DNA from: a virus
IMG/VR virus record: IMGVR_UViG_3300020129_000442
Coordinates: 1 to 22,818 of that record
Reading direction: 5' to 3' (one strand)
Length of the DNA stretch: 22,818 nucleotides
The translations under genes were made by a program, and so were the position numbers. The notes under the pieces are model-generated. The model worked only from the letters and a program-made list of their open reading frames with translations, was not told where the DNA came from and ran no database searches. Positions 2,985-21,311 of the stretch are shown in pieces. The stretch's first letter is position 1. Each line of letters opens with the position of its first letter.

Positions 2985-3289
2985 GTCCCGATCGACGACG
3001 CCGAGGAGATCACGGCGATCCTCGCCCCCCACGCGGCCAAGCTCGCCCGGCGGCCGGACCCAAAAAGCTCGACTACCTCAAGCTCAAATGGCTCGTCTCC
3101 GGCAAGGGCAGGCGGCTCCCGGAGGGGCTGAGCCGGCAGGCCTATGAGGACATCCTCCACGTCATCCGCTTCGGCCTGCTGCCCGGCGAGGACAGGGGCC
3201 GGGACGGGCTGCCGGTGGAGGTGGGCACCTGGCTGATGCCGGTGCAGATGGCGATCGACCAGGCGCAGAGGGAGGCGAGCAAGGGATGA
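2985..3289 (+). CDS. Tail assembly chaperone downstream (gpT-like) extension, needs -1 frameshift
   Basis: After the amber codon the original frame stays open and coding-like to the slippery site C CCA AAA. In the -1 frame the protein continues KKLDYLKLKWLVSGKG and ends 'MPVQMAIDQAQREASKG' at TGA 3287-3289. No ATG, GTG or TTG lies in either frame between 2985 and the slippery site, so this part cannot start on its own in the usual way. With the amber read as sense and one slip, the fusion would be 201 residues, typical for a G-T type chaperone. The stop overlaps the next gene's ATG by four bases. Either the long form needs amber bypass or the gene is damaged. Confidence 0.6.
3059..3065 (+). 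promoter_or_regulatory. Programmed -1 ribosomal frameshift heptamer CCCAAAA
   Basis: In the upstream frame the codons read gaC CCA AAA, an exact X XXY YYZ heptamer with X=C, Y=A, Z=A. Slipping back one base re-pairs both tRNAs (CCC, AAA) and enters the frame that encodes the chaperone extension. It lies where siphophages place the G/GT frameshift. A possible 6-bp stem lies downstream (3113-3118 with 3130-3135), but it is distant and weak as a stimulator. Confidence 0.75.
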
Positions 3290-3753
3290 CCCCGGCTGAG
3301 CTTCCCGGCCGCCTGCGCCGCCTCGCCCGCGACGTCCGGGACCGCGCCGCGCTCGACGCCGCCGGCGCCATGGCGCAGGCGTACCAGCGCAGCGTGGTCA
3401 AGAGCATGCGCGGCCCGTCACCGTCCCCCGCCGGGACGCCCCCGGCGCGCCGCACGGGCACCCTGGCCCGGTCGGTGCGACCCGAGCCGGCCGTCCCCGC
3501 GGGCGCCTGCCGGGCCACCTCGAGCGTCGCCCCGCACGCGGTGTACGCGCGGATCCAGCAGAAGGGCGGCGTCATCGTCCCGGTCCGCGCGAAGGTGCTC
3601 CGCTGGAAGGAGGGCAAGCGCTACCGGTACGCCAGGCGCGTGGTGCTGCCCGCGCGGCCGTACATGGTGATGACCGGCGCCAGGCGCCAGGAGTGCCATG
3701 ACGCCGCCGTCGCCGCGGCCCGCCGGGTGATCCGGGAGGCCCTCAGTGGATGA
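3286..3753 (+). CDS. HK97 gp10-like / virion morphogenesis protein
   Basis: 155 residues from ATG 3286, four-base overlap with the chaperone stop. The sequence has a helical, Arg-rich N-terminus ('GRLRRLARDVRDRAALDAAG'). It then has a 'GTLARSV' segment, 'HAVYARIQQKGGVIVP' and 'VVLPARPYMVMTG'. The pattern of 'R...S', 'YA..Q..GG' and 'PARP' is what I associate with HK97-gp10-like and P2 gpS-like tail completion proteins. These sit at the head-tail junction. Its placement between the chaperones and the tape measure, rather than upstream of the major tail gene, is less usual. Length fits the family. Confidence 0.6.
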   Translation: MTPAELPGRLRRLARDVRDRAALDAAGAMAQAYQRSVVKSMRGPSPSPAGTPPARRTGTLARSVRPEPAVPAGACRATSSVAPHAVYARIQQKGGVIVPVRAKVLRWKEGKRYRYARRVVLPARPYMVMTGARRQECHDAAVAAARRVIREALSG

Positions 3754-6214
3754 GCTGGAGGACGTAAGGCAGCAGTTCATCGCCGACGTCGGCGCCTACG
3801 TCGAGGACGTCCAGCTGGCGGCCGAGGAGGCCCGCGGGTTCGCCGAGAGCGCCCGGGCGGCGAAGGACGAGGCGGACGGGCTGCGCGACGGCCTGTCCGA
3901 GGCCGCCGTCGCGGCCGGGATCTACCGCGACGAGATGGGCCGCCTGCGCGACGCCCAGGGCAGGTTCGCGTCCGCCGCCTCGGTGGCTGCGACCGAGATG
4001 GGCCACGTCCGCGACGAGGCCGCCGCGGCCGCCGTCTCGGTGAAGGAGCTGGGCAAGCAGGCCGACGAGACCGCCGCCAAGCTCGACCTGATGGGCCTGT
4101 CCGGCGCGTCCACGTTCACCAGCCTCGGCGGGCTCATCGGCCTCATCGGCGGCCTGGTCGTCGTCGGCGCCGGGGTCGCGCCCGCGTTCCTCGCCGCCGG
4201 CGCCGGGATCGGCGCATTCGGGGCGCTGGCCCTCCCCACCCTGCAGAACGTCTTCTCCGCCGTCCAGCAGGTCAGCAAGGCCCAGTCGGTACTGAACAGC
4301 GCCACCTCCACCGCCAAGCAGCGCGCCACCGCCCTGCAGCAGGAGAAGGCCATCTGGGCGTCCCTGCCCGCCCCCATCGCCATGGTCGTCACCGAGGTGA
4401 TGAACCTCAAGGCCCAGTGGCAGGACCTCGGCAAGCAGTTCCAGATGCCCGTCGTCCAGGACCTGTCCCAGGTCATCGGGATCGTCTCGGACCTGCTGCC
4501 GAAGATCGTCCCGCTGGCGACGGCCGGCGCCGGGGCGGTCCACATGCTGCTGTCCGCCCTGGGCACCAGCGTCGGCTCGTCCGGGTTCACCCAGTTCCTG
4601 CAGCTCCTGACGAACTTCGTCGGCCCCGCCACGCAGGCGATCATGCACCTGGCGGGCGCCCTCACCCACATCCTGGGCAGCGCGATCGAGACCCTGATGG
4701 GCAACGCGCCGCCGCTGATCAACTTCCTGGCCGACCTGGTCACCGCGCTCGGCGGCCCGCTGGTGACCGCCATCCACTTCGTCGTCGACCTGCTGGTCAA
4801 CCTGCTCGGCGCCATCGACCCGCTGCTGCCCGGCCTGTCGCAGATCGCGACCCTGCTCGTCACCGACATCGGCACCTCGTTCGAGGCCCTGATCCCGGTC
4901 CTGTCCCAGGTCATCCAGCTGATCGGCGGCTCCCTGATCACCATCTTGCAGGAGCTGGAGCCTGTGATCGCGAACGCCCTGACCCCGAACGGGCCGTTCA
5001 TGGCGGCGCTGGCCATGCTGCCAAGGCTGCTGCAGGCGATCCTGCCCCTGTTCACCGGCCTGGCGTCGGTCCTGAAGAACCCCATGTGGGCGTCGCTGGC
5101 CGTCGACGTCCTGTCCGGCATCGTCGCCCTCAAGGCCGTCATCGGCATCATCTCCCTGGTGCGCGGGGCGTTCATCGCGCTCACCGCGGTGATGGAGATA
5201 AACCCGTTCATCCTGATCGCCACCGTCATCGCCGCCCTCGTGGTCGCGTTCATCGAGCTGTGGAACCACTCGGCGGCATTCCGTAACTTCTGGATCGGCC
5301 TGTGGCATGACATCCTCGCCGCCGCCGCCCCCGCGATCGCGTTCGTGAAGCAGGAAATCGGGATCCTCACCACCTGGTGGAATGCCCACTGGACGGAGAT
5401 CCGCGAGGTCGCCCGCATCGCGTGGGCGCTGATCAGCGGCTACGTGACGACCTACGTGAAGGTCGTGATGATCGAGATAAAGCTCGCCCTGGAGCTGATC
5501 TCGATCATCTGGCGGATCGCCTGGGGGGAGATCCGAGACCTGTTCCTGCTGGTGTGGAACGTGATGCGGGCCGCGGTCACCGCGTTCACCCGGGTAATCC
5601 TCGACATCGTCGCGATCTTCCTCGACGTGATCACCGGGCACTGGTCCAAGGCGTGGCACGACATCCAGAAGCTGTTCCACGATTACGTCAACGGCATCGT
5701 GTCGATCGCGCGGGCGTTCGGCTCCGGCCTGGTCCGGTTCTTCGTGGACCTCGGCCACAACATCATCCAGGGGCTGATCAGCGGCATCAAGGACATGGCC
5801 GGGGCGGTGTTCGGGGTGCTGGGCACCATCGCCCACGGCATCAGCTCGACCTTCAGCTCCGTGCTGCACATCCTGTCGCCGTCGCGGGTGTTCTACGAGC
5901 ACGGCCGCAATACGCTGCTCGGCTACATCCAGGGCATCGCCGCGGTGGCGCCGCAGGTGCAGGCGGCGCTCGCCGCGGTAGGCGGCCACGTGGCGATGGG
6001 CGGCCTGCCAGGGATCGCCGTGGCGGGCGCGGCCGGGGCGGCCGGCTTCGCCAGCGGCCACCTGAACGTCACGGTGACGGTCGCCCCGGGGGCGGGGAAC
6101 ATGGCCGATGCCCGGTGGCTGCAGTGGCTGCAGCAGGCCTTCCAGGAGGCTGCGCTCCGGTATAACCTGAACAACCCGAATAACGGGCTGGCGTTCGGCG
6201 CCGGGCGCGTCTGA
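3746..6214 (+). CDS. Tail tape measure protein
   Basis: 822 residues from GTG 3746, with GGAGG at 3735-3739 as ribosome site and an 8-bp overlap with the upstream gene. Residues 1-120 are Ala/Glu/Arg-rich and coiled-coil-like. They are followed by strongly hydrophobic segments (about 127-170 and again about 450-510) typical of tape measures, which are ejected and cross the membrane. The motif 'SPSRVFYEHGRNTLLGYIQG' near residue 710 is a hallmark of phage tape measures. At about 1.5 angstrom per residue, the length predicts a tail near 120 nm, a moderate siphovirus tail. No peptidase or lysozyme motif was seen. It works with the chaperones upstream and the minor tail proteins downstream. Confidence 0.9.
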   Translation: MDELEDVRQQFIADVGAYVEDVQLAAEEARGFAESARAAKDEADGLRDGLSEAAVAAGIYRDEMGRLRDAQGRFASAASVAATEMGHVRDEAAAAAVSVKELGKQADETAAKLDLMGLSGASTFTSLGGLIGLIGGLVVVGAGVAPAFLAAGAGIGAFGALALPTLQNVFSAVQQVSKAQSVLNSATSTAKQRATALQQEKAIWASLPAPIAMVVTEVMNLKAQWQDLGKQFQMPVVQDLSQVIGIVSDLLPKIVPLATAGAGAVHMLLSALGTSVGSSGFTQFLQLLTNFVGPATQAIMHLAGALTHILGSAIETLMGNAPPLINFLADLVTALGGPLVTAIHFVVDLLVNLLGAIDPLLPGLSQIATLLVTDIGTSFEALIPVLSQVIQLIGGSLITILQELEPVIANALTPNGPFMAALAMLPRLLQAILPLFTGLASVLKNPMWASLAVDVLSGIVALKAVIGIISLVRGAFIALTAVMEINPFILIATVIAALVVAFIELWNHSAAFRNFWIGLWHDILAAAAPAIAFVKQEIGILTTWWNAHWTEIREVARIAWALISGYVTTYVKVVMIEIKLALELISIIWRIAWGEIRDLFLLVWNVMRAAVTAFTRVILDIVAIFLDVITGHWSKAWHDIQKLFHDYVNGIVSIARAFGSGLVRFFVDLGHNIIQGLISGIKDMAGAVFGVLGTIAHGISSTFSSVLHILSPSRVFYEHGRNTLLGYIQGIAAVAPQVQAALAAVGGHVAMGGLPGIAVAGAAGAAGFASGHLNVTVTVAPGAGNMADARWLQWLQQAFQEAALRYNLNNPNNGLAFGAGRV

Positions 6215-9200
6215 TGGTCAGCATCGCGGGCACGTGGACCGGCGGGTACGCGCAGCCGACCGGGTTCTTCTTACCCCGCTCGGCTACCGGCCCGGTGCAG
6301 GTCAGCGTCGCGAACGTGACCGGGGACTGGATGATCGCGGTCATCGCGCTCCGCCCCCCCGCGCCGGCCGCCGCATGCTCGGTGTGCGTCTCCGATGACG
6401 TCCATAACTGGTGGGAGCCGGCCGGCGCCCCGAACGCGGACATCGCGGCGCCCGCCACCGTCCGCACCGTCATCTGGGCCGCGCCCGCCGCCCGCGCCGC
6501 CAGCTCCGTGCAGGTCACCCCGACCGGCCCGTACACCTCCCTGGCCGTGGCCGTCTACGACGTGGCGGGCCTCGGCCCCGGCTGGCTGCCGTCCCTCATC
6601 GGGCAGGCCCACGCCTCGCCCGCGACGTCGCTGACCGTGCCCGGCGGCAGCGTCGCCGCCCAGTCGCTGGTCCTGGCGATCCTCGCCGCGGGCGAGACGG
6701 GCGGCACCATCACCCCGCCGGCCGGGTGGACGGCGCTGACCGGGTCAACGATCTCCGGCGGCGGCACCGCCGCGGGCGACATCACCGTCTCGGCCGCCTA
6801 CCAGGTGATCACCGGCAGCGTCCCCTCGGCGGCCTGGTCCTCGTCAGTGTCGTGCGCGCTGGCGGGCACCACGGGCGCCGTCGCCGTCGCCGCCCCGGTG
6901 CCATCCCTCCAGTCGCCGGACTGGCCCGCCGTCATCACCGAGGCCGCGATCGGGGCGGGACCGCAGTCGTCCCCGGCCTTGATGACGTGGACGGACCTGT
7001 CGGCCCGGTCGCTGGCCCTGCAGGTGCAGCAGGGCCGCCAGTACACCCTGTCCCAGCTGCAGGCCGCCCAGGGAACCATCACCCTGGATGACCCGGACGG
7101 CGCCCTCATCCCGCCCGGCACCGGCGGCTTCGCCGGGATCGACTCCGGCACCCCGCTGCGCCGCCGCTGCTACTGGCCGGGCGGGGCGTGGCAGGTCCAG
7201 TTCTCCGGCAACGGCTCGAGCAGTTCCCCGCAGCTGCAGTCATCGGGCAGCCAGGTGCCCGTCACCCCGGGCGTCACCTACACGGCGCCCGTCTGGCTGG
7301 CCTGCTCGGCGCCGTACGCGTCCGGCGTGCACAGCGGGATCGTGTGGCGCAACTCCGGCGGCGGCGTCATCTCCACGGTCACCTCGGCCGCGTCGGCGAC
7401 GGGCCCGGCGCCAGTGCTGGCCATCGCGTCGGGCATCGCGCCGGCGGGGGCGGTCACCGCCGACGTCCTCATCGGCGCGTCCGGCACCCCGCCAGCGTCC
7501 ACCGTGTTCACCGCGGCGGCCGGCCCGTACGTCACGGGGCAGGTCACCGCCCCGCCGGGGGTGTCCTGGGTGGCGCAGAACGGCGCCGCCGCCACCACGC
7601 TCGCGGCCTGGCAGCCGGACCCGCGCGGCGCCCCGGACCCGTCTCCCTGGAGCGTCCCGTTCGCGGGGTTCTTCCGCCGCTGGCCGTTCACGACCGCCGC
7701 CGACCTGCTGCGCGGCCAGGTGACGGCCGAGGTCTCGGATATCTGGGCCTACGCCACGGGCTCGCTGGACTCCATCGCCCGGGAGGAGCTGCTGACCGAC
7801 GGCCCCTATGCGCTGTGGCCGCTCGGCGACCAGGCCGGGGCGGCCGCGGGCAGCAACATCGCGCCCGGCAACAGTAGCCCGCTGACGCTAGTGACGTCCA
7901 AGATGGGCGCCGGCAGCGCCACGGCGGCGTTCGGCGCGACGCCGCCCGGCGGCGGCCTACTGGGCGACAACTCCGCCAAGACGGGCGCGAACGGCATGTT
8001 CCGGCAGGTGGTCCCCGCATCCGGTGAGGGCGTCAACGGGTTCGGGTACGCCCTCGGCTGCTACGACTCCGGCTTCCCCGCCATCTCGGCCGGGGTCACG
8101 CTCGAGTGCTGGGCGCAGGGCACCGTCAACCAGAACACGACCGGCAACGGGTTCGGCGCCGTCACCACGGGCAGCCTGTTCACCGTCACCGGCAGCAGCT
8201 TCCCCAACGGCACCCCTGTCGTGCTGACCGCCGCGGGCGGGTTCACCTTCCCGGGCGGCTTCACCGCGGGCACCGTGTACTACGTCATCTCCGCTAACGG
8301 CGCCAGCTTCCAGCTGGCCGCGACGGGCGGCGGCTCGGCGATCACCGTGACCGGCAATGGCAGCGGGTTCCTGCAGACCACCACCAGCTGGAACCCGGTG
8401 GTCATCAGCGCGCGGAACGTCAAGGGCCCCGTCGTGGAGCTCAACGTCCGCAACACTGACGGGGCGCTGCAGCTGCTGTACGCCACCGCCTCCGGCGCCC
8501 GCACCACGCTGGTCATCGACACCAGCCTGGACTACCGCAACACCGCGCTATGGCACGCGAGCGTCGCGTTCAGCGCGACGACGTACCGGGTGCTGGTCAA
8601 CGGCGGGGCGACCGCGACGGCCAGCGGGTCATTCTCCGCGGCGCTGCCCGCGTTCTTCGACGAGGTGTGGTGCGGCGGGATCCTCGACCGGCAGGTCACC
8701 GGGTTCACCTTCCCCGGGTACCTGGCGCTGGCGGGGGTGTGGCCGGGGATGCTCGCCCAGGTCCGCGTCGTGGCCCACTTCTGGGGGGCGCACGCCGGGA
8801 TGAAGCTCGACCCCGCCCATGAGCGCCTGGACCGGGTCCTGGGCTACGCGGGGATCGCGGGGCGCCGGTGGATCGGCCAGCAGTCCGTCACCTACGAGAC
8901 GGACATCCTCGCGTCCGGGCAGGACATCGGCGGGCAGTCCGCCGCCGCGAGCGCGGGCAACGTCGCCGCCTCCACCGTCCCGGCGCTGCTGTACATCGCG
9001 CCGACAGGGGACATCTCGTACGCGGCGAAGGCCTACCAGTGGAACAACGCGGTCGACTGGGTGCTGGGGGACAGCACGGCGGCCGGGGAGATCCCGTTCA
9101 GCCTCACGTCGTTCAGCACCGATTACGACCCGGCCAGGCTGTACAACGACGTGCAGCTGACACAGCTGGACAGCCAGTCAGTGACGGTCCCGGCCGGGTC

Positions 9201-9675
9201 GACCGCGACGACCACCGTGGCGGCGATGGTGGCGGCCAGCGAGGCACAGTACGGCGACCAGCCGTACCAGCAGACCGCCTACCTGCAGAACGACGGCAAC
9301 GCCGCCTACAACGCCGGCTCCGGGCTGACGGACCTGGCGGCGTGGATCGCGATGGTGTACGGCAAGCCCCGCAACCGGGTGCCGGGCGTCACGGTGAACG
9401 CCGCGGCGTACCCGGCGGCGTGGCAGCTGTTCACCCGCGCGGCGGTGGGCGACATGGTGCAGGTCAACGTGCGGCTGCCGACCGCGGCGGCGTCGCCGCT
9501 GGTGTCGGTGATCGCCCGGGTGACGCAGACGGCCAGGTCGATGAAGTGGGACACCGACTCGCCGCCTGTCGCGTCGATCGCGCTGACGCTGGACGCGGCC
9601 CCGGAGTACAACGCCCTGACCTGCGATGACGCGACCCGGGGGCTACTTAACGGGGTGAACGTCCTTGCGTGGTAG
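6214..9675 (+). CDS. Large minor tail protein with LamG-like domain and nested beta insert
   Basis: 1153 residues; the ATG overlaps the tape measure stop (TGATG), and it is the first gene after it. Residues 1-230 form a beta-rich module ('DDVHNWWEPAGAPN', 'VYDVAGLGPGW'). Residues about 230-520 contain 'LQAAQGTITLDDPDGALIPP' and a jelly-roll-like carbohydrate-binding stretch. Residues about 530-880 look like a concanavalin/LamG fold ('DGPYALWPLGDQAG', 'TLECWAQG', 'YRVLVNGG', 'GYLALAGVWPGMLAQVRVVAHFWG'), interrupted at about 648-722 by a separate repeat-like domain. The C-terminus ('QLFTRAAVGDMVQVNVRLP') resembles baseplate hub or adhesion proteins. It probably forms the tail tip and host contact. 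Residue 20 is encoded by TTA (6271-6273), rare in high-GC actinobacteria. Confidence 0.8.
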   Translation: MVSIAGTWTGGYAQPTGFFLPRSATGPVQVSVANVTGDWMIAVIALRPPAPAAACSVCVSDDVHNWWEPAGAPNADIAAPATVRTVIWAAPAARAASSVQVTPTGPYTSLAVAVYDVAGLGPGWLPSLIGQAHASPATSLTVPGGSVAAQSLVLAILAAGETGGTITPPAGWTALTGSTISGGGTAAGDITVSAAYQVITGSVPSAAWSSSVSCALAGTTGAVAVAAPVPSLQSPDWPAVITEAAIGAGPQSSPALMTWTDLSARSLALQVQQGRQYTLSQLQAAQGTITLDDPDGALIPPGTGGFAGIDSGTPLRRRCYWPGGAWQVQFSGNGSSSSPQLQSSGSQVPVTPGVTYTAPVWLACSAPYASGVHSGIVWRNSGGGVISTVTSAASATGPAPVLAIASGIAPAGAVTADVLIGASGTPPASTVFTAAAGPYVTGQVTAPPGVSWVAQNGAAATTLAAWQPDPRGAPDPSPWSVPFAGFFRRWPFTTAADLLRGQVTAEVSDIWAYATGSLDSIAREELLTDGPYALWPLGDQAGAAAGSNIAPGNSSPLTLVTSKMGAGSATAAFGATPPGGGLLGDNSAKTGANGMFRQVVPASGEGVNGFGYALGCYDSGFPAISAGVTLECWAQGTVNQNTTGNGFGAVTTGSLFTVTGSSFPNGTPVVLTAAGGFTFPGGFTAGTVYYVISANGASFQLAATGGGSAITVTGNGSGFLQTTTSWNPVVISARNVKGPVVELNVRNTDGALQLLYATASGARTTLVIDTSLDYRNTALWHASVAFSATTYRVLVNGGATATASGSFSAALPAFFDEVWCGGILDRQVTGFTFPGYLALAGVWPGMLAQVRVVAHFWGAHAGMKLDPAHERLDRVLGYAGIAGRRWIGQQSVTYETDILASGQDIGGQSAAASAGNVAASTVPALLYIAPTGDISYAAKAYQWNNAVDWVLGDSTAAGEIPFSLTSFSTDYDPARLYNDVQLTQLDSQSVTVPAGSTATTTVAAMVAASEAQYGDQPYQQTAYLQNDGNAAYNAGSGLTDLAAWIAMVYGKPRNRVPGVTVNAAAYPAAWQLFTRAAVGDMVQVNVRLPTAAASPLVSVIARVTQTARSMKWDTDSPPVASIALTLDAAPEYNALTCDDATRGLLNGVNVLAW

Positions 9676-14556: not shown

Positions 14557-16620
14557 CTAACTCACCTCCCTGCGGGCCAGCGCCGAGCGCAGGTCAGCCG
14601 GGTCAAGGCGCGGAACGTTGCCCGTGTTCGTCCACCGCACGTCCTCGGCGTCGAGCCGGGCGGCCAGCTCCTTGCCGGTCAGCTGCCGGTACTCGCCCCA
14701 CGACGGCGCCAGCTTCCGCAGCCGCGCCGGGAGGTCCGCCAGGCGAACCGGCTCGCCGTCATCCCTGGTCACCTCGGCCAGGTCCGCCAGCAGGTCCCGC
14801 TGCTCGATCATCGGCAGGCCGCTGCCGGGCAGCTCCCGGCCCTTGCGCGCCATCTCCGCCAGCGCCCGGTTCACCAGCGGCGTCACCTGGTCGTCGTCGC
14901 TGCGCACGTTCAGCCGGTGCACCTGCACCATCTCCGACCGCTCGCCGGAGAAGCCCTTGCACAGGGCCGTCCCGCGGTCCACTCCCGGGATGAGCTCCGT
15001 CGCCCGGTGCCCGGCCCGGTACGCGCCCTGGCCGAGCAGCGCGTCATTCGCCACGTGGTCGCCGACGGCGTGCGCGATGCCCACCGTGCAGTTCCGCGTC
15101 ACGTCCCGCGGCATGGAGTCCTTCGTCGGGGCCTGCGTGGAGACCATCACGTGCACGGCGCGCTTGCGGTCCAGCCTGACCACGTCGCACAGCAGCCCCG
15201 AGATTTCCTTGCCGTGCCTGTGGTGCTGGATCGCGACGTGGGCCTCCTCTAGCAGCCAGAAGACCGGGTGCAGGCCCACCCCGGCGTGCGCGAGCTCGCG
15301 GGTGACCTCCTGCTGCTCGTGGTCGATGAGCAGCTGGCCGCGCCGCTGGATCTCGTCCTTCAGCTCCTCCAGCTCGCGCAGGATGCGCTCCATGTGCTCG
15401 TCCTCGGCGCCCATGACGTAGCGGGAGCAGCGCCGCTTGAACGGCTCGAAGTCAAAGTTGGTGTCCGGGACGAATATCCGCAGCTCAGTGATGATGTCCA
15501 GCGCGTACCCGGCCGCCACGATGCGGGCGCTGTTGCTCTTGCCCTGCTCCGGGGCGCCGCCGCAGATGCTGTTGCGGCCGATGGCCGGGAAGCGCACCGG
15601 GTCGCCGCGCAGCGTCCGCCCGAACGGCAGGCCGCGGAACACGTCGGTGAAGCCGCCCTCGGCCAGCGGGTACGGCCCGGCGCCCTCAGCCAGCGCGCCC
15701 TTGTCGGCCACCCACAGCTTCAGGTGGGACGCGTCGGCGCCGGTTGACGGCCACACCTCGGTAGGCAGCCGGTACAGGCCTGAGGCCAGCTTGGCGCGGC
15801 GCCTGGCCACCTCCTCCGCGGTGACTCCCTTCGGCAGCCGCACCTCGGCGTACGTGCCGCGGCCCTCCTGCCGGGGCGGCACGATGTAGGGCATCGGCAG
15901 GCCGTCCTTGAGGTAGTCGGCGATCAGCTTCAGGCCGAGCACCGCCAGGGCCTGCGTGACGGCCCGCTCGTCTATGCTGATGTCGGCGTCGGAGTCGGCC
16001 GAGACGGCCGTCCACGACGGCGCCATGCTGCCGCCGGTCCGGCCCAGCTGCCACAGCCCGGCCACGACGGCCAGCGGGGCGGCGAACGTGGCCACCGTCA
16101 GCGCCACTGAGACGACCTCGGCGACCAGGGCGATGGCGTGCGCCGCCCAGGCGTACGGGGTGACGACGTCGAGCAGGTCGTGATGGTCGAACGCCAGCGC
16201 CAGCCCGAGCAGGCCCGGGGCGACGGCCGAGCAGGCGAGGACGGCCAGGCCGCCCTTGATGATGACCGGGATCAGCTCGACGAGCGCCCGGCGCCGCTCA
16301 TGGCGCTGCTTGCGCTCCAGCTCGGCGTGCTGCTGCCAGGCCAGCATCGCCTCATGGTTGCCCTGCGCCTCCAGCGCCCGCAGCGTCCGCTCGTGCCGGG
16401 TGCGCCGGTGGCGCCAGCGGCGCCAGGCGACGACCGCCCCGGCCGCCACATAGCCGGCGTGGCGCAAAGCGGCTGGAACTGTCCGGGATCGTCCAGGATC
16501 GTCTAGCCGGGCGGCGGCCACCCCGGTCGCCGTGGCCGCCGCCTCGTCTACCACCTCGCCGTCCAGCACCAGCGGCTCAACCGCGGCGGCCGGGACGGCG
16601 GGCAGGTTCGTCTCAGGCAC
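14557..16620 (-). CDS. FtsK/SpoIIIE-type (TraB-like) DNA translocase
   Basis: 687 residues. Residues 1-110 are cytoplasmic with a basic Arg/Trp stretch. Membrane helices follow at about 119-144 and 157-190. The motor domain has Walker A GGAPEQGKSNSARI (G355-K361-S362) and Walker B 'VFWLLEEAH' (453-461), with a sensor-like 'HVMVSTQAPTKDSMPRDV'. The C-terminal 60 residues ('LTGKELAARLDAEDVRWTNT') may be a winged-helix DNA-reading domain. TraB proteins of Streptomyces plasmids and integrative elements share this plan and move double-stranded DNA between hyphae. The start overlaps the DUF2637 gene by 8 bp. In a phage, alternative roles are plasmid-like spread, partition or packaging help. Host FtsK is excluded by size and context. 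Confidence 0.85.
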   Translation of the reverse strand: MPETNLPAVPAAAVEPLVLDGEVVDEAAATATGVAAARLDDPGRSRTVPAALRHAGYVAAGAVVAWRRWRHRRTRHERTLRALEAQGNHEAMLAWQQHAELERKQRHERRRALVELIPVIIKGGLAVLACSAVAPGLLGLALAFDHHDLLDVVTPYAWAAHAIALVAEVVSVALTVATFAAPLAVVAGLWQLGRTGGSMAPSWTAVSADSDADISIDERAVTQALAVLGLKLIADYLKDGLPMPYIVPPRQEGRGTYAEVRLPKGVTAEEVARRRAKLASGLYRLPTEVWPSTGADASHLKLWVADKGALAEGAGPYPLAEGGFTDVFRGLPFGRTLRGDPVRFPAIGRNSICGGAPEQGKSNSARIVAAGYALDIITELRIFVPDTNFDFEPFKRRCSRYVMGAEDEHMERILRELEELKDEIQRRGQLLIDHEQQEVTRELAHAGVGLHPVFWLLEEAHVAIQHHRHGKEISGLLCDVVRLDRKRAVHVMVSTQAPTKDSMPRDVTRNCTVGIAHAVGDHVANDALLGQGAYRAGHRATELIPGVDRGTALCKGFSGERSEMVQVHRLNVRSDDDQVTPLVNRALAEMARKGRELPGSGLPMIEQRDLLADLAEVTRDDGEPVRLADLPARLRKLAPSWGEYRQLTGKELAARLDAEDVRWTNTGNVPRLDPADLRSALARREVS

Positions 16621-17335
16621 CCGGCGCGCTCCCGTTCAGCGACGGCTCCGCAACCGGCTCCGCCAGCGCCTGGCGGACCTTATGACGGGTCACGCCGAAC
16701 CGGTCGGCGAGCGCCTCTTCCCCGTACTGCTCGCCCTCGTCCCGCAGCCGCACGCGGGCCAGCGGGAGCGCCTCCGCCAGCGACGCCGGCGGCGGCGGGC
16801 ACGAGCAGTTGAGCGCCGGTTGAGGATCCTCCCCGCGCGCCACCCTGCGCACCTCGCCCAGCAGCCAGAACGCCACGGCGGACATGAGCACGACGGCCAC
16901 GCCGGACGACGCCGACACGGCCGGGCCGAGCCAGGCGACGCGGACGTCGGAGTAGTAGTTCGCGGCGATCGTCGCCGCTATGCCGGCCAGCATCACGCCT
17001 CCCGGTTGCCATAGCCGGCGCAGCCCGCGGACGCCGTACATCGCGGCCCACAGCAGCGCCGCCCCGGCGACGAAGATCATGCCGTCGAGGGTGAAGGGAA
17101 CCAGCGCGGCGACCCAGCGCACTTGCCCGTTGGCGCGGGCGAGGACGTACTCGTGCTCGTAGCTGACGGCGGAGGTGATGCACATCCCGGCGCCGACTAC
17201 GGAGAAGATGACGGCGAGGAAGACTTGCTCGGCCGGCCAGCGGCGCGGCGCCCGGTCGGCGCGGTTGCGCGGCGGTTGCGCGGCGGCTGACGGCTGACTA
17301 CTTCCGGCGCTGGCGACACTGCCGTTAAGGTTCAT
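16613..17335 (-). CDS. DUF2637 membrane protein (plasmid spread type)
   Basis: 240 residues from ATG 17335 with GAGG a few bases upstream; an upstream extension to 17485 lacks a comparable site. A disordered, Arg/Pro-rich N-terminus (1-35) is followed by four likely membrane helices (about 36-57, 75-97, 112-126, 137-160). A cytoplasmic tail carries an HTH-like segment 'EEALADRFGVTRHKVRQALA' (206-225). DUF2637 proteins are typically encoded beside FtsK/TraB-like genes in actinobacterial plasmids and integrative elements, where they are thought to help intermycelial spread. The gene is co-directional and overlaps its FtsK-like partner. The tail helix could bind DNA or contact the pump. Confidence 0.75.
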   Translation of the reverse strand: MNLNGSVASAGSSQPSAAAQPPRNRADRAPRRWPAEQVFLAVIFSVVGAGMCITSAVSYEHEYVLARANGQVRWVAALVPFTLDGMIFVAGAALLWAAMYGVRGLRRLWQPGGVMLAGIAATIAANYYSDVRVAWLGPAVSASSGVAVVLMSAVAFWLLGEVRRVARGEDPQPALNCSCPPPPASLAEALPLARVRLRDEGEQYGEEALADRFGVTRHKVRQALAEPVAEPSLNGSAPGA

Positions 17336-17432
17336 TCGGGCCTCAGTCCTTGGTAGCTCAAGGGGTGGGGTGGGCCGGTTCCGACCGGTCCCGGGCCGGG
17401 TGGCTGTTGACGCAGCCGCCTGGCCCGCTTCT

Positions 17433-17462
17433 GTTATATGGGGGCAGACTACATCCTGTCTC
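17433..17462 (-). promoter_or_regulatory. Candidate leftward promoter for the DUF2637-FtsK operon
   Basis: On the reverse strand GAGACA (17457-17462) and TATAAC (17433-17438) are separated by 18 bp; the -10 matches TATAAT in five of six bases. It lies about 100 bp upstream of the DUF2637 start, in the divergent gap with the GntR gene. Confidence 0.45.
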
Positions 17463-17470
17463 CATACAGC

Positions 17471-17498
17471 ACCAGGCAGGATCATGCAGGACCAGGCA
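17471..17498. repeat. ACCAGGCA direct repeats, two helical turns apart
   Basis: ACCAGGCA occurs at 17471-17478 and 17491-17498, start to start 20 bp, between the leftward promoter candidate and the GntR gene. The spacing places both copies on one DNA face, as expected for a regulator site. Binding by the adjacent GntR protein is inference. Confidence 0.4.
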
Positions 17499-17522
17499 TA
17501 CGCGAGCGTTTAGAGTGGTCAC

Positions 17523-17828
17523 GTGCTGTCTACGGTGATCACCATGACTGAAGAGGACGGGCAGGCACCGGAGGATGACCAGGCCCCGATCGTCCCGCGC
17601 GGCTACGACCTCGCCTATGAGGTGGTCGCCAGGCGGCTGGAGAGGCGCATCAAGGCGGGAGAGTGGGGCTATCACATGCCGCTGCCGTCCGAGCCGGCGC
17701 TGTCGGAGTGGTACGGCGTCTCGCGGACGACGATCCGGTCAGCGGCCCGGCTGCTGGAGGAACGGGGACTGGTGGAGGTCATCAGCGGCCGCGGCACGTA
17801 CGTCGCGTGGCGCCCGGATGCCAGCTAG
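17523..17828 (+). CDS. Small GntR-family transcriptional regulator (KorSA-like)
   Basis: 101 residues from GTG 17523, or 94 from ATG 17544. A TAGAGT -10-like box at 17511-17516 would place the transcript start at or near the GTG, allowing leaderless translation. After an acidic N-terminus comes the whole GntR winged helix: 'AYEVVARRLERRIKAGEWGY', 'MPLPSEPALSEWYGVSRTTI' and 'RSAARLLEERGLVEVISGRG'. The protein stops right after the wing, with no effector domain. Such short GntR proteins control transfer genes in Streptomyces plasmids and integrative elements (KorSA type), and here it is divergent from the TraB/DUF2637 pair. A palindrome GGTGATCACC (17534-17543) inside its 5' end may serve in self-control. 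Confidence 0.85.
   Translation: MLSTVITMTEEDGQAPEDDQAPIVPRGYDLAYEVVARRLERRIKAGEWGYHMPLPSEPALSEWYGVSRTTIRSAARLLEERGLVEVISGRGTYVAWRPDAS
17534..17543. promoter_or_regulatory. Perfect palindrome GGTGATCACC at the GntR start
   Basis: A 10-bp perfect palindrome directly before the internal ATG (17544) of the GntR gene. It could be a self-repression site; GntR proteins bind short palindromes. Chance cannot be excluded. Confidence 0.35.
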
Positions 17829-17848
17829 CGCGCCAGCCCACACGTCGG

Positions 17849-17945: not shown

Positions 17946-17993
17946 GCACTCGTAATGCGTAGGTCATCGGTTCGATTCCGATAGGCGGCTCCA
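17946..17993 (+). other. attP-type core: 3' part of a tRNA-Thr(CGU) gene
   Basis: The segment holds anticodon loop CTCGTAA (17949-17955, anticodon CGT), a complete T-arm (ATCGG / TTCGATT / CCGAT, 17966-17982), 3' acceptor strand AGGCGGC (17983-17989), discriminator T and CCA. Nothing upstream supplies the 5' acceptor strand (GCCGCCT expected) or a D-arm, so this is not a functional tRNA gene. It is the identity segment by which an integrating element restores the host tRNA. Phage-type genes and shared operators flank both sides, so an attP state is favoured over a chromosomal attR. Confidence 0.8.
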
Positions 17994-17998
17994 GGCCA

Positions 17999-18031
17999 GG
18001 GCCGGTTTCCCGAAACCGGCCCTTTGTATTT
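17999..18031 (+). terminator. Rho-independent terminator after the tRNA fragment
   Basis: GGGCCGGTTTC pairs with GAAACCGGCCC (17999-18009 with 18012-18022; tight centre, about 10 effective pairs), followed by TTTGTATTT. It would stop tRNA transcription in the integrated state and insulate the downstream gene in the attP state. Confidence 0.85.
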
Positions 18032-18073
18032 GCCAGCCACGGTGCCAGCCAAGAGGGTCAGAAAGGGCGCGTC

Positions 18074-18628
18074 ATGGCGAGCGTTTATGACACATGGCAC
18101 CAGGCGAAGGTGAACGGCGCGGAAGTCTGCAAAGACCACGGCCAGGTGCCGTCCGCCCGGCATGGCAGCGGCAAGCGCTGGCAGGTCCGCTGGCGCGACG
18201 GCGGCCATCAGCGGAACGCGAAATTCGACAAGCGCGCCGACGCCGAGCGCCACCTTAAGCAGCTCGGCGGAGCGTGGTGCATCGTGCCCAAGTGCGACAG
18301 CTCCGCGGCAACAGAGCCGCCCGTCCTGCTGTGCGCCGATCACCGGGACCTGCTGCTGGCCCAGCTCGGGCGCAAGCGCCCGAGCGTGCATGACCCACTC
18401 GTCTACTTCATCCGGAACGGGACGCGCATCAAGATCGGATGGACGACCAACCTAAAGGCGCGCCTGTCATCGCTGGCGCTTCCCGCGACCGCAGTGGCGC
18501 TGACGGTGGCCGGCGGCCCGGAGCAGGAGGCGATCCTGCATCAGCGGTTCGCTCGTGCCCGGGTCGGCCGCACGGAGTGGTTTGAGGCGGCTCCTGAGAT
18601 AGAGGCATTCATCGTCTCCCGCACCTAA
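18074..18628 (+). CDS. Integrase-type N-terminal domain fused to T5orf172/GIY-YIG domain
   Basis: 184 residues from ATG 18074 with GAAAGGG six bases upstream. Residues 1-65 ('MASVYDTWHQ', 'CKDHGQVPSARHGSGKRWQV', 'RWRDGGHQRNAKFDKRADAE') match the N-terminal arm-binding part of pSAM2-type tyrosine integrases. A zinc-like cluster follows (C69, C74, C87, H90). Instead of a catalytic recombinase domain, residues 107-180 form a T5orf172 domain: 'VYFIRNGTRIKIGWTTNLKA' then 'QEAILHQRFARARVGRTEWF', with Y111, K120-IG, R130, E152, H156. This family is a GIY-YIG relative, presumably a nuclease. The gene occupies the place next to att where integrases usually start. It may bind att DNA and nick it, or act in exclusion; the role is unknown. 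Confidence 0.75.
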   Translation: MASVYDTWHQAKVNGAEVCKDHGQVPSARHGSGKRWQVRWRDGGHQRNAKFDKRADAERHLKQLGGAWCIVPKCDSSAATEPPVLLCADHRDLLLAQLGRKRPSVHDPLVYFIRNGTRIKIGWTTNLKARLSSLALPATAVALTVAGGPEQEAILHQRFARARVGRTEWFEAAPEIEAFIVSRT

Positions 18629-18668: not shown

Positions 18669-18716
18669 CCGCGTCATATGAGCGTTACGGACAACGCCAG
18701 ACAAGGGGAACAGATC

Positions 18717-19163
18717 ATGGCCGGCAGGCAGCCTCAGCAACCCTCGCCCCAGCAGCGGCCCCCGGCGGTGCAGCCCCGTCGCCGCCGGGGCGCAGTCATC
18801 CTCGGCATAGGCGCCGTCATCTGCGCCGCCATCGTCGCCGCCGCGATAGCGCATGACCGCAGCCAGCAGCCAGCATCCACGGTCACGTTCGTGACCACCG
18901 GCTCGCCTGCCGACGTCACCTGGGGCGATGCCGGCAGCAGCGCCAAGGGCGCCGTCCCGATGCGCGAGACGATCCCCATCGGCAACCCGCTGTACTACTC
19001 CCTCAACGTCCAGCTCAACGGCGACGGCAGCGCCTCCTGCCAGATCCTCATCGGCGGCACGGTCATCTCGCAGGCCACCGCCACCGGCGGCTACACCATC
19101 GCCAGGTGCCAGGTCAGCAAGGACGCCTCCGGCCAGTGGCGGGACGACACCAGCGGCGGTTAG
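18717..19163 (+). CDS. MmpS-like single-pass membrane protein
   Basis: 148 residues from ATG 18717, chosen because AAGGGG lies just upstream; ATG 18678 is a longer in-frame alternative. A Gln/Pro/Arg-rich cytoplasmic N-terminus is followed by one membrane helix ('GAVILGIGAVICAAIVAAAI', about residues 25-45). The extracytoplasmic beta domain reads 'STVTFVTTGSPADVTWGDAG', 'PLYYSLNVQLNGDGSASCQI' and 'GGYTIARCQVSKDASGQW'. Strand pattern and Cys pair fit the MmpS family, known in mycobacteria as partners of MmpL exporters. Mobile elements of actinobacteria often carry stand-alone versions. No MmpL gene is present here, so a cell-surface or exclusion role is possible. It converges on the integrase. 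Confidence 0.7.
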   Translation: MAGRQPQQPSPQQRPPAVQPRRRRGAVILGIGAVICAAIVAAAIAHDRSQQPASTVTFVTTGSPADVTWGDAGSSAKGAVPMRETIPIGNPLYYSLNVQLNGDGSASCQILIGGTVISQATATGGYTIARCQVSKDASGQWRDDTSGG

Positions 19164-19169
19164 CCGCCG
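19154..19169. terminator. Hairpin CGGCGG-TTAG-CCGCCG at convergent stops
   Basis: A perfect 6-bp GC stem with loop TTAG. The loop holds the TAG of the MmpS-like gene on one strand and the TAA of the integrase on the other. No U-tract is present, so it may only weakly terminate, but it works symmetrically for both convergent transcripts. Confidence 0.5.
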
Positions 19170-20296
19170 AACCGCGCGTCCAGCCGGGACACTACCCGCG
19201 CGTGCATCACCGGCCGCACGTGCGTGTAGATCTCGGCCATCGCCGCCGTCGACCAGCCCATCAGGTCCTGGACCACGCGCGGGTCCTCCCCCGCCTCCAG
19301 CTGCTCCGTCGCGTAGGCGTGCCGCAGGTCATGCACCCGGTAGCGCGGCAGCCCGGCCGACGCCAGCAGGTCCTGCCAGTCCTGCCAGTCATCCCGCGAG
19401 TGCACCGGCTCCCCGTTCGGCCGGGTGAACACCAGCCCGCGGATATCGGCTACCGGCTGCCGCTCGAAGTGCGCCGCCAGCGCCCGCGCGCCGATCGCGG
19501 GCAGGGGCACGGTACGGCGGGACTTCCGCGACTTCGGGTCCTTCCACACCCACTCCCCGGCGATCCGGGACTGCGGCTTGCGCACCGTCACCGACGCGGG
19601 AGCCGCCAGCCGCACGTCTGTGCGGCGCATGCCGAGCGCCTCGCCCTGCCGCAGGCCCGTCGTGATCGCCAGCACCCACCGCGCCCCATTCGGCCACGCC
19701 TCGCACGCCGCGAGCACCATGTCCAGCTCGGCCGCCGACGGCGGCTCGGGCAGCTGCCGCTCCGCGCGCGGCGGCGTGACGATGCTGGCCGGGTTGTACG
19801 GCATCCGCTTGCGGCGCACCGCCTCATTCAGGCAGCTGGACAGTATGCGGTGCGCCGTGACGATCGTGGACGGCGAGATCGTGCCGCCGCGCCGCGAGGG
19901 CCGCTCCAGCATCGCCGCGTGCCAGTCCTCGATATCCTCCGCGGACAGCTCCGCCAGCGGCACCCGCTGGAAAAACGGGGCGATGTAGTCCTCGCATTTC
20001 TGCCGGTACGACCGGTACCAGGTGTTCGGGTCAACCTTCGCCCTGGCTGTGTTGTGACACCAGTGCAGCACCCATTCCGACACGGTCGGCTGCCGCCCGC
20101 GGGGCAGCGTGAAGCCGTCCCGGCGGCGGCCAAGGAACGCGGCCCGCTTCTCCAGCGCGGCATCCGGCGTCGGGCCGGTGAACTCCCGCCGGTCCCGCTT
20201 CCCGCCCTTCCATCCCAGGTCGGCGACCGCCACCCACTGGTTACGGGACGTCCGGTGGTAGAGGCTCCCCTCGCCGTGCTGCCTCCGCCCTGGCAC
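19160..20296 (-). CDS. int: Tyrosine recombinase/phage integrase
   Basis: 378 residues from GTG 20296 with GGGAGGAAG six bases upstream. The N-terminus ('GEGSLYHRTSRNQWVAVADL') fits an AP2-like arm-binding domain. A SAM-like core-binding domain spans about 68-165 ('TVSEWVLHWCHN'). The catalytic domain is complete: R216 in 'TTGLRQGEALGMR', a Lys in 'KDPKSRKSRRTVPLP' near 254, H322-x-x-R325 in 'VHDLRHAYAT', W348 in 'GWSTAAM' and the nucleophile Y357 in 'AEIYTHV'. It catalyses site-specific recombination, very probably at the tRNA-Thr segment about 1.2 kb away. The MmpS-like gene and the T5orf172 fusion gene lie between int and att, an unusual spacing. It overlaps the small membrane gene by 56 bp. 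Confidence 0.95.
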   Translation of the reverse strand: MPGRRQHGEGSLYHRTSRNQWVAVADLGWKGGKRDRREFTGPTPDAALEKRAAFLGRRRDGFTLPRGRQPTVSEWVLHWCHNTARAKVDPNTWYRSYRQKCEDYIAPFFQRVPLAELSAEDIEDWHAAMLERPSRRGGTISPSTIVTAHRILSSCLNEAVRRKRMPYNPASIVTPPRAERQLPEPPSAAELDMVLAACEAWPNGARWVLAITTGLRQGEALGMRRTDVRLAAPASVTVRKPQSRIAGEWVWKDPKSRKSRRTVPLPAIGARALAAHFERQPVADIRGLVFTRPNGEPVHSRDDWQDWQDLLASAGLPRYRVHDLRHAYATEQLEAGEDPRVVQDLMGWSTAAMAEIYTHVRPVMHARVVSRLDARFGG

Positions 20297-20469: not shown

Positions 20470-20928
20470 CTAACTGACCACAAGCGGGCAAATGTAAATT
20501 AATTCACCTCCGCCACGGAGGGCGCGCAGGTCCTCGGCGATCATCGCCGCCAGCGCGGCGCGCTGGCGCGCGCTGAGGCCGCGGGCCTCGCCTGCGGCGC
20601 GTGCCCCTTCTGCGGCGGCGGCCTCGTCGGCGTCGGCCTGCGCGGCGTGCTCCGCGGCCAGCTCCTCAAGGATCACGGCTGCCTCCGGGTAGCCGTCGTC
20701 CCTGAGCTCGGCGGGGGTCACGCCCACGGCTAGGGCCATCCGGGCGAGGGTGGCGGGCGGCGCGGGCTCGGGGGCGTAGCCGAGCGGGGTGCTGCGGGAG
20801 CCGCTCTCCAGCTGGCGCCATCGCGCCTCGGAGATGCCGGCGGATGCGGCTGCTTGCCTGATGGACTGCTTTCGCCGTTTCTGGATGAGCTGCATCACTG
20901 ACGGCTGGGGCGGGCGTGGCGCGGTCAT
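20470..20928 (-). CDS. XRE (Cro/CI) family repressor candidate
   Basis: 152 residues from ATG 20928 with AAGGAC eight bases upstream. Residues about 12-75 form a Cro/CI helix-turn-helix: 'LIQKRRKQSIRQAAASAGIS', 'EARWRQLESGSRS' and 'LARMALAVGVTPAELRD'. An Ala/Glu-rich helical C-terminus follows, perhaps for dimerisation. It is divergent from the excisionase-like gene across a gap with two copies of the shared operator, so it is the leading candidate for the immunity repressor. One TTA codon (20500-20502) lies near the 3' end; in Streptomyces such codons depend on the bldA tRNA. The last codons are unusually AT-rich. Confidence 0.8.
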   Translation of the reverse strand: MTAPRPPQPSVMQLIQKRRKQSIRQAAASAGISEARWRQLESGSRSTPLGYAPEPAPPATLARMALAVGVTPAELRDDGYPEAAVILEELAAEHAAQADADEAAAAEGARAAGEARGLSARQRAALAAMIAEDLRALRGGGELIYICPLVVS

Positions 20929-20972
20929 GTCCGTCCGTCCTTTGCGGGTTCGTGCTACCCCCTATGCACGCG

Positions 20973-21001
20973 AGGATAACACGCACGTTCGCGAACTTGA
21001 G
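20973..21001 (-). promoter_or_regulatory. Repressor promoter with operator in the spacer
   Basis: Reverse strand: TATCCT (20973-20978) as -10, 17-bp spacer, weak -35 CTCAAG (20996-21001). The palindrome GTTCGCGAAC (20987-20996) sits in the spacer and overlaps the -35 by one base, so a bound repressor would shut off its own gene. Confidence 0.5.
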
Positions 21002-21041
21002 TGACGGCGCAATCCCAATTTCACGTGCCTTCAGGCCAGGG

Positions 21042-21070
21042 TTGCGAAGATGCGAACGTTCGCGTACTCT
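21042..21070 (+). promoter_or_regulatory. Excisionase promoter with operator in the spacer
   Basis: TTGCGA (21042-21047), 17-bp spacer, TACTCT (21065-21070). The perfect palindrome GCGAACGTTCGC (21052-21063) fills the spacer. The expected transcript start falls on or next to the ATG at 21078, so the mRNA is probably leaderless. No Shine-Dalgarno sequence lies before the ATG. Confidence 0.65.
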
Positions 21071-21077
21071 ACTCGGC

Positions 21078-21311
21078 ATGACGAACCCAACCCGCGCCGA
21101 CGCGATGCTCACGAGCGCCGAGGTGATGGAGCAGCTGGGGATCAAGAAGACCGCCTTTTACAAGCTGCTCAACGCCGGAGAGCTGAAGGCGGTCGACGTG
21201 TCCGCCGCGCCGCGCAAGCGCCGCATCGGCGAGCCGGGCAGGCGCCGCACCCTTCGCATCCCCCAGTCGCAAGTCGACGCCTTCAAGGCGCGCAACGCGA
21301 TCACCGCCTGA
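21078..21311 (+). CDS. Excisionase-like MerR/HTH_17 DNA-binding protein
   Basis: 77 residues from ATG 21078. The core 'MLTSAEVMEQLGIKKTAFYK' and 'LLNAGELKAVDV', then 'RRTLRIPQSQVDAFKARN', is the winged-helix pattern shared by phage excisionases and HTH_17 proteins ('sv.eva..LgvskstvyrLi..GeLpa....g..rri...dl..f'). It is divergent from the XRE gene and is the first gene of the rightward early operon. Xis proteins bend att DNA so the integrase can run in reverse. A purely transcriptional role is the alternative. No ribosome site is present; leaderless expression is likely. Confidence 0.8.
   Translation: MTNPTRADAMLTSAEVMEQLGIKKTAFYKLLNAGELKAVDVSAAPRKRRIGEPGRRRTLRIPQSQVDAFKARNAITA

Follow-up and report, generated by a model that had tools for sequence, protein, structure and literature searches.

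The window analyzed here is the whole of a linear record of 22.8 kb (22,818 nucleotides) from an actinobacterial virus of soil, in which phage genes occupying the left part, including those for a tape measure protein (3746-6214) and a neck protein, are followed by genes for a TraB/FtsK-like protein, a DUF2637 protein and a GntR regulator, an att site, the fusion gene that is the subject of this report, a second cargo gene, and an integrase gene (Table 1). Transfer genes of the AICE type (14557-17828) share the element with phage tail genes and adjoin attP, and the block of TraB/FtsK-like, DUF2637 and GntR genes is retained in two relatives (L052 and L053). The tail protein encoded at 6214-9675 had no relative among the phages searched, and a candidate aspS RNA at 17515-17575 was rejected, its score falling far under the gathering score.

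Table 1. Features of the fusion gene and its surroundings (window positions)
Feature	Position	Strand	Evidence or remark
TraB/FtsK-like transfer protein	14557..16620	-	tblastn, actinobacterial FtsK/SpoIIIE plasmid proteins, E to 3e-42
DUF2637 (SpdB2-like) membrane protein	16613..17485	-	Pfam
GntR regulator, KorSA-like by position and type	17523..17828	+	Pfam GntR, 3.6e-19
P-side paired arm-type sites, YGCCAGCY-N4-YGCCAGCC	17819..17838	+	motif scan, expected 0.00
attP core, 3' part of tRNA-Thr(CGT)	17949..17993	+	exact match to intact tRNA-Thr genes
P'-side paired arm-type sites, TGCCAGCC-N4-TGCCAGCC	18031..18050	+	motif scan, expected 0.00; conserved in relatives
Fusion gene	18074..18628	+	ATG start, 184 aa; integrase head, Zn module and T5orf172 nuclease
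pSAM2-type integrase N-terminal (arm-binding type) head, residues 1-66	18074..18271	+	HMM, integrase frames, model
Cys/His module C69-x4-C74...C87-x2-H90, residues 69-90	18278..18343	+	invariant in nuclease relatives
T5orf172/GIY-YIG nuclease domain, residues 110-175	18401..18598	+	Pfam, alignment, model
Cargo gene, membrane-anchored/secreted-looking protein	18678..19163	+	homologue directly after attL in L039
Resident tyrosine integrase	19160..20296	-	Pfam Phage_integrase, 4.5e-19; relatives 50-82%
HTH_17 excisionase-like protein	20916..21311	+	Pfam

Domain architecture of the fusion protein

Judged by its sequence, the 184-residue ORF is a confirmed fusion of a pSAM2-type integrase head to a T5orf172/GIY-YIG nuclease module (residues 105-181), as the first-pass annotation of this DNA had observed. 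The label "pSAM2-type" follows the general understanding of this integrase class; the alignment covered members other than pSAM2 Int. Pfam recognized residues 110-175 as MUG113 (E = 3.8e-7; 31 bits against a cut-off of 22.3) and as T5orf172 (6.7e-6; 27 bits against 20), with no match at the N-terminus; the Phage_integrase catalytic domain was absent from the ORF in the same search, and the protein is therefore not an integrase. When 395 actinomycete genomes were searched, residues 1-60 found their matches at the beginning of long frames, with E values down to 5e-13 and approximately 50% identity in the better matches, and these frames carried the Phage_integrase domain wherever this was tested; residues 105-181 matched separate T5orf172 proteins, and no frame matched both segments. 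Despite the lack of a Pfam match, the N-terminus is thus a genuine integrase head. With HMMs built without the window's own row, the fusion ORF was the sole match among the window's six frames for both the head (9.7e-23) and the nuclease module (2.2e-28). The third-position G+C content is 0.86 in the head and 0.84 in the remainder of the ORF, codon usage resembles that of the window in both halves, and direct reading reveals a plausible ribosome-binding sequence ahead of the start codon.

All the invariant residues of the head (D6, W8, H9, G31, G33, R35, W36, Q37, R39, and R41) are retained in the fusion, although its identity to head-type integrases, of which many exist, reaches at most ~55%, too low to point to a recent donor integrase or a nameable rival. 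Searched alone against plasmids and phages, the head gave only weak integrase matches. The head and nuclease halves were modelled separately for structure prediction. The first of these models (pLDDT 87) comprises three β-strands followed by an α-helix, which is how integrase arm-binding domains are built, and the second (pLDDT 94) is GIY-YIG-like; structural matches of the head were weak and included AP2 domains along with the HPI integrase arm-binding domain. Foldseek returned no significant match for either half. The best eight structural matches of the nuclease model were all GIY-YIG proteins with modest Z scores of 3.0-4.7 (Slx1, 4.7; UPF0213, 4.4; UvrC, ~3), compared with at most 2.5 for unrelated entries.

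The nuclease likewise retains its invariant residues (V110, Y111, K120, I121, G122, R130, E152, and H156), with the VYF, KIG, R130 and E152 elements of the core motif conserved, in agreement with the initial guess that Y111 and E152 are catalytic. Given that key residues survive in the head and in the nuclease, both halves look functional, with the active-site residues intact. The cluster C69-C74-C87-H90, noticed at the outset as a Cys/His cluster, does not vary among the Zn-T5orf172 proteins that Gordonia phages and Streptomyces plasmids encode; the fusion therefore consists of a head and a complete nuclease module, and the cluster is, by this conservation, a part of that module native to actinobacterial T5orf172 proteins and not a scar of the fusion event. 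The proposal that an older integrase was cut and fused at this att site is accordingly not borne out: no remnant of an integrase core follows, and the C-terminal two thirds of the supposed integrase stump are a normal Zn-T5orf172 module.

Among actinobacterial viral contigs, T5orf172 domains (L096, L098, L100, L101, L102, L099, and L108) were found behind several unrelated N-termini, some of them apparent multi-pass membrane regions without a Pfam name, suggesting that the T5orf172 domain acts as a swappable C-terminal unit in these proteins. Coreless use of the head was also encountered. In IMGVR_UViG_3300036820_000005 (L080), an ORF of ~95 residues at 2989-3273 consists of a head and a helical-looking tail, and its end overlaps the start of a full integrase that carries a head of its own; this ORF, possibly a competitor for integrase-binding sites, is the only other apparently intact coreless use of the head found among virus contigs. 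A further contig (L135, 1965-2444) encodes a secreted-looking protein of 160 residues that has a signal peptide and, in one segment, matches the integrase-head profile (E = 7e-13).

Integration site, resident integrase, and cargo slot

The 45 bases of the attP core are identical to a segment within intact tRNA-Thr genes of actinomycete genomes, in accordance with the tRNA att site initially placed beside the ORF. In a relative (L039), an intact tRNA is followed by a right arm of the same type as that of the window; the presence of both arms identifies the window site as attP. The complete second integrase proposed in the first-pass annotation was recovered as well, and is the likely owner of this attP. 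It was not detected by the head profile even at an E value of 10 and therefore belongs to a head subfamily different from that of the fusion.

The paired arm-type sites lie beside the integrase 3' end in seven of the nine loci closest to that of the resident integrase (L183-L191, with L184 and L185 near-identical), and five of these seven also carry the tRNA-Thr core. There were two to four copies of TGCCAGCC at each of seven resident-type integrases checked, compared with three copies in 65 kb around 59 head-type loci, some of which are duplicates. Because the pairs recur at resident-type integrases and are nearly absent at head-type ones, they are very likely the arm sites of the resident integrase, so that the head of the fusion is not expected to recognize them. 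A repeat search for the arm sites of head-type integrases yielded no shared motif. Thus, contrary to the initial suggestion, binding of the fusion protein to the arms of its own element's att site is improbable, provided that the head subfamily determines which arms are recognized. Nor does the ORF occupy the position at which such integrases usually begin, as had been proposed: among ~40 head-type integrase loci, one starts beside a recognizable tRNA and one ends beside one.

The orientation of the attP core varies, the core being on the integrase strand in L187 and L188 and on the opposite strand in the window, L183, L186, and L191; with resident-type integrases found on either side of the core, the integrase gene must have switched sides of attP. 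Separately, a tRNA-Thr core devoid of the tRNA 5' half stands alone in a bacterial genome (L047, G290:C77); this orphan probably marks a terminus of a different element that uses the site.

What lies between the right arm and the integrase gene differs among relatives, making this stretch a slot for variable cargo and the location of the fusion gene an accessory one. In L037 and L055 the slot holds lipoprotein-like genes beside attP; L052 carries other small ORFs there, and L039 has a gene homologous to the second cargo gene. Neither the fusion nor any T5orf172 gene was present in the stretch read at the loci of the resident-integrase relatives.

Distribution

The gene is known from one copy on one metagenomic contig. 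No second fusion was found in pattern scans of IMG/VR based on alignments of the head and of the nuclease or in searches of ~860 genomes, where rarity does not equal absence, given that pattern-based scans miss diverged members. Searches with the whole protein found no relative in genome contigs and none in viral contigs apart from one distant T5orf172 protein, and matches in plasmids and phages were to the nuclease part only. The taxonomic order of a genome with the same tRNA core yielded one head-type integrase and no fusion. Short head-containing frames considered as further fusions were rejected, being mostly truncated or frameshifted integrases, along with one secreted-looking protein. 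In the literature searched, no T5orf172 domain joined to an integrase domain was reported. Each component, be it nuclease, Zn module or head, is already known; it is their combination that was not encountered in the literature or collections searched.

A candidate nuclease directed at integration sites

The exclusion of competing elements, one of the roles suggested in the first-pass annotation, is supported by a published precedent with the same domain order, Odn, the origin-directed nuclease of Vibrio phage ICP1 (gp88), which cuts the origin of a rival (PMC8263062). The reading that we favor, at somewhat less than even confidence, is that the fusion protein is a targeted nuclease built as an Odn-type chimera, encoded in the cargo of a temperate phage-like element of actinobacteria and aimed at the integrase arm sites of rivals. 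The head, taken from a pSAM2-type integrase, would bind arm-type sites at the att of rival integrating elements, the targeted rivals presumably being those that use the integrase class of that head; the T5orf172 domain, aided by its own Zn module, would cut rival DNA at these sites; and the cutting would block integration, excision or spread of the rival. The element itself would be spared by virtue of a resident integrase with a different head and different arm sites, the TGCCAGCC pairs. We count in favor of this reading the two separate strong homologies within one frame, the invariant residues retained in both halves, the GIY-YIG matches of the nuclease model and the arm-binding topology of the head model, the domain order of Odn, the near-absence of the resident arm motif at head-type loci, and the lack of the gene at the loci of relatives. 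We count against it the head identity of at most ~55%, which leaves donor and rival without a name, the single copy on a metagenomic contig, the frequency of homing endonucleases among T5orf172 genes, the weak structural matches of the head, and the possibility that the Zn module itself could be the source of DNA specificity.

That last point leads to a different reading, under which the gene is defense or other cargo with no particular target, its specificity residing in the Zn module and the head being a passive leader acquired by chance fusion. Actinobacterial Zn-T5orf172 proteins do have many different N-termini, or none, and there is a weak match to the phage-defense candidate PDC-S57 (E = 3e-4), but the retention of all head invariants over 60 residues, at ~50% identity to integrases, would hardly be expected of a passive leader, and we find this explanation improbable. 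Somewhat better placed, albeit still unlikely, is a free-standing homing endonuclease, that is, a T5orf172 gene with an acquired integrase head that copies itself into allelic sites of related phages, for example, within or beside integrase/att regions. In phages, T5orf172 genes are for the most part regarded as homing endonucleases whose DNA-binding domains can be exchanged (PMC10448857), and the gene is present here and missing from the slot of the relatives. However, that slot is filled by unrelated genes, so that there is no clean, uninterrupted allele, no cleavage-site allele was seen, the head differs from the one in the resident integrase, and the arm motif of the latter is nearly absent at head-type integrases.

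The same mismatch of head subfamily and arm motif weighs against a regulator of the element's own integration, in which the head would sit on the resident attP arms and the nuclease would nick or occupy the DNA, controlling excision or integrase competition. The ORF does start 23 bp downstream of the P' arm sites, and the head-only ORF of L080, directly upstream of a full integrase, indicates that heads can serve as separate proteins there; yet an active nuclease acting on its own attP would harm the element, and the gene is missing from relatives that have the same attP, leaving this account with a rather low probability, slightly below that of the passive leader. As for an assembly chimera or a recent, dead fusion without function, a single metagenomic contig with no second copy in the collections searched is what an artifact would produce, but one open frame with coding-type composition runs across the junction, the flanks are as in relatives, with attP on the left and the cargo gene and integrase on the right, and the catalytic residues are retained, all of which renders it very improbable.

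Returning to the Odn-type reading, if it is true, the Odn principle extends from replication origins to integration sites, and integrase recognition sites would become a second class of essential sites, after origins, to be attacked via captured DNA-binding domains. Counter-evolution of arm sites and integrase heads would then be predicted in actinobacterial integrating elements, and head-only and head-fusion proteins would be worth seeking as weapons of element against element. Overall, the initial interpretation is partly supported.

Comparison with known systems

In Odn, an N-terminal domain 42% identical to the RepA_N of the rival precedes T5orf172, and E180 is the residue mutated as catalytic (PMC8263062); Odn-like genes are predicted in coliphages, where different RepA_N domains match different satellites (PMC10448857). 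The fusion resembles Odn in having an N-terminal DNA-binding domain similar to a protein of another mobile element and a C-terminal T5orf172 domain, and in the position of the catalytic glutamate, with E152 and H156 aligning with E180 and H184 of Odn. Unlike Odn, with its RepA_N domain and origin cutting, it has a head of the integrase arm-binding type, a Zn module, an actinobacterial host, and an activity that is predicted. Its DNA-binding domain places it outside the definition of Odn, and it would work like Odn only if the prediction holds.

T5orf172 homing endonucleases with CapR-type Zn fingers share with the fusion the T5orf172 domain, a Cys-rich module and exchangeable DNA-binding parts (PMC10448857), but differ from it in that the pattern of the fusion is CxxxxC...CxxH and an integrase head is added. 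The likeness to pSAM2-type (AICE) tyrosine integrases covers the first ~65 residues, beyond which the fusion has neither a SAM-like nor a catalytic recombinase domain. Zn-T5orf172 proteins of Gordonia phages (such as Frokostdame gp83) and Streptomyces plasmids correspond to residues ~65-181 in the same order, Cys/His module included, but have no integrase head. Whereas the only nucleases known to follow this plan, those of the Odn type, borrow the front end of a replication protein, the fusion borrows that of an integrase, and it may, at somewhat less than even odds, represent an att-directed nuclease, in which the arm-binding domain of a rival integrase class has been repurposed to cut rivals where their integrase binds.
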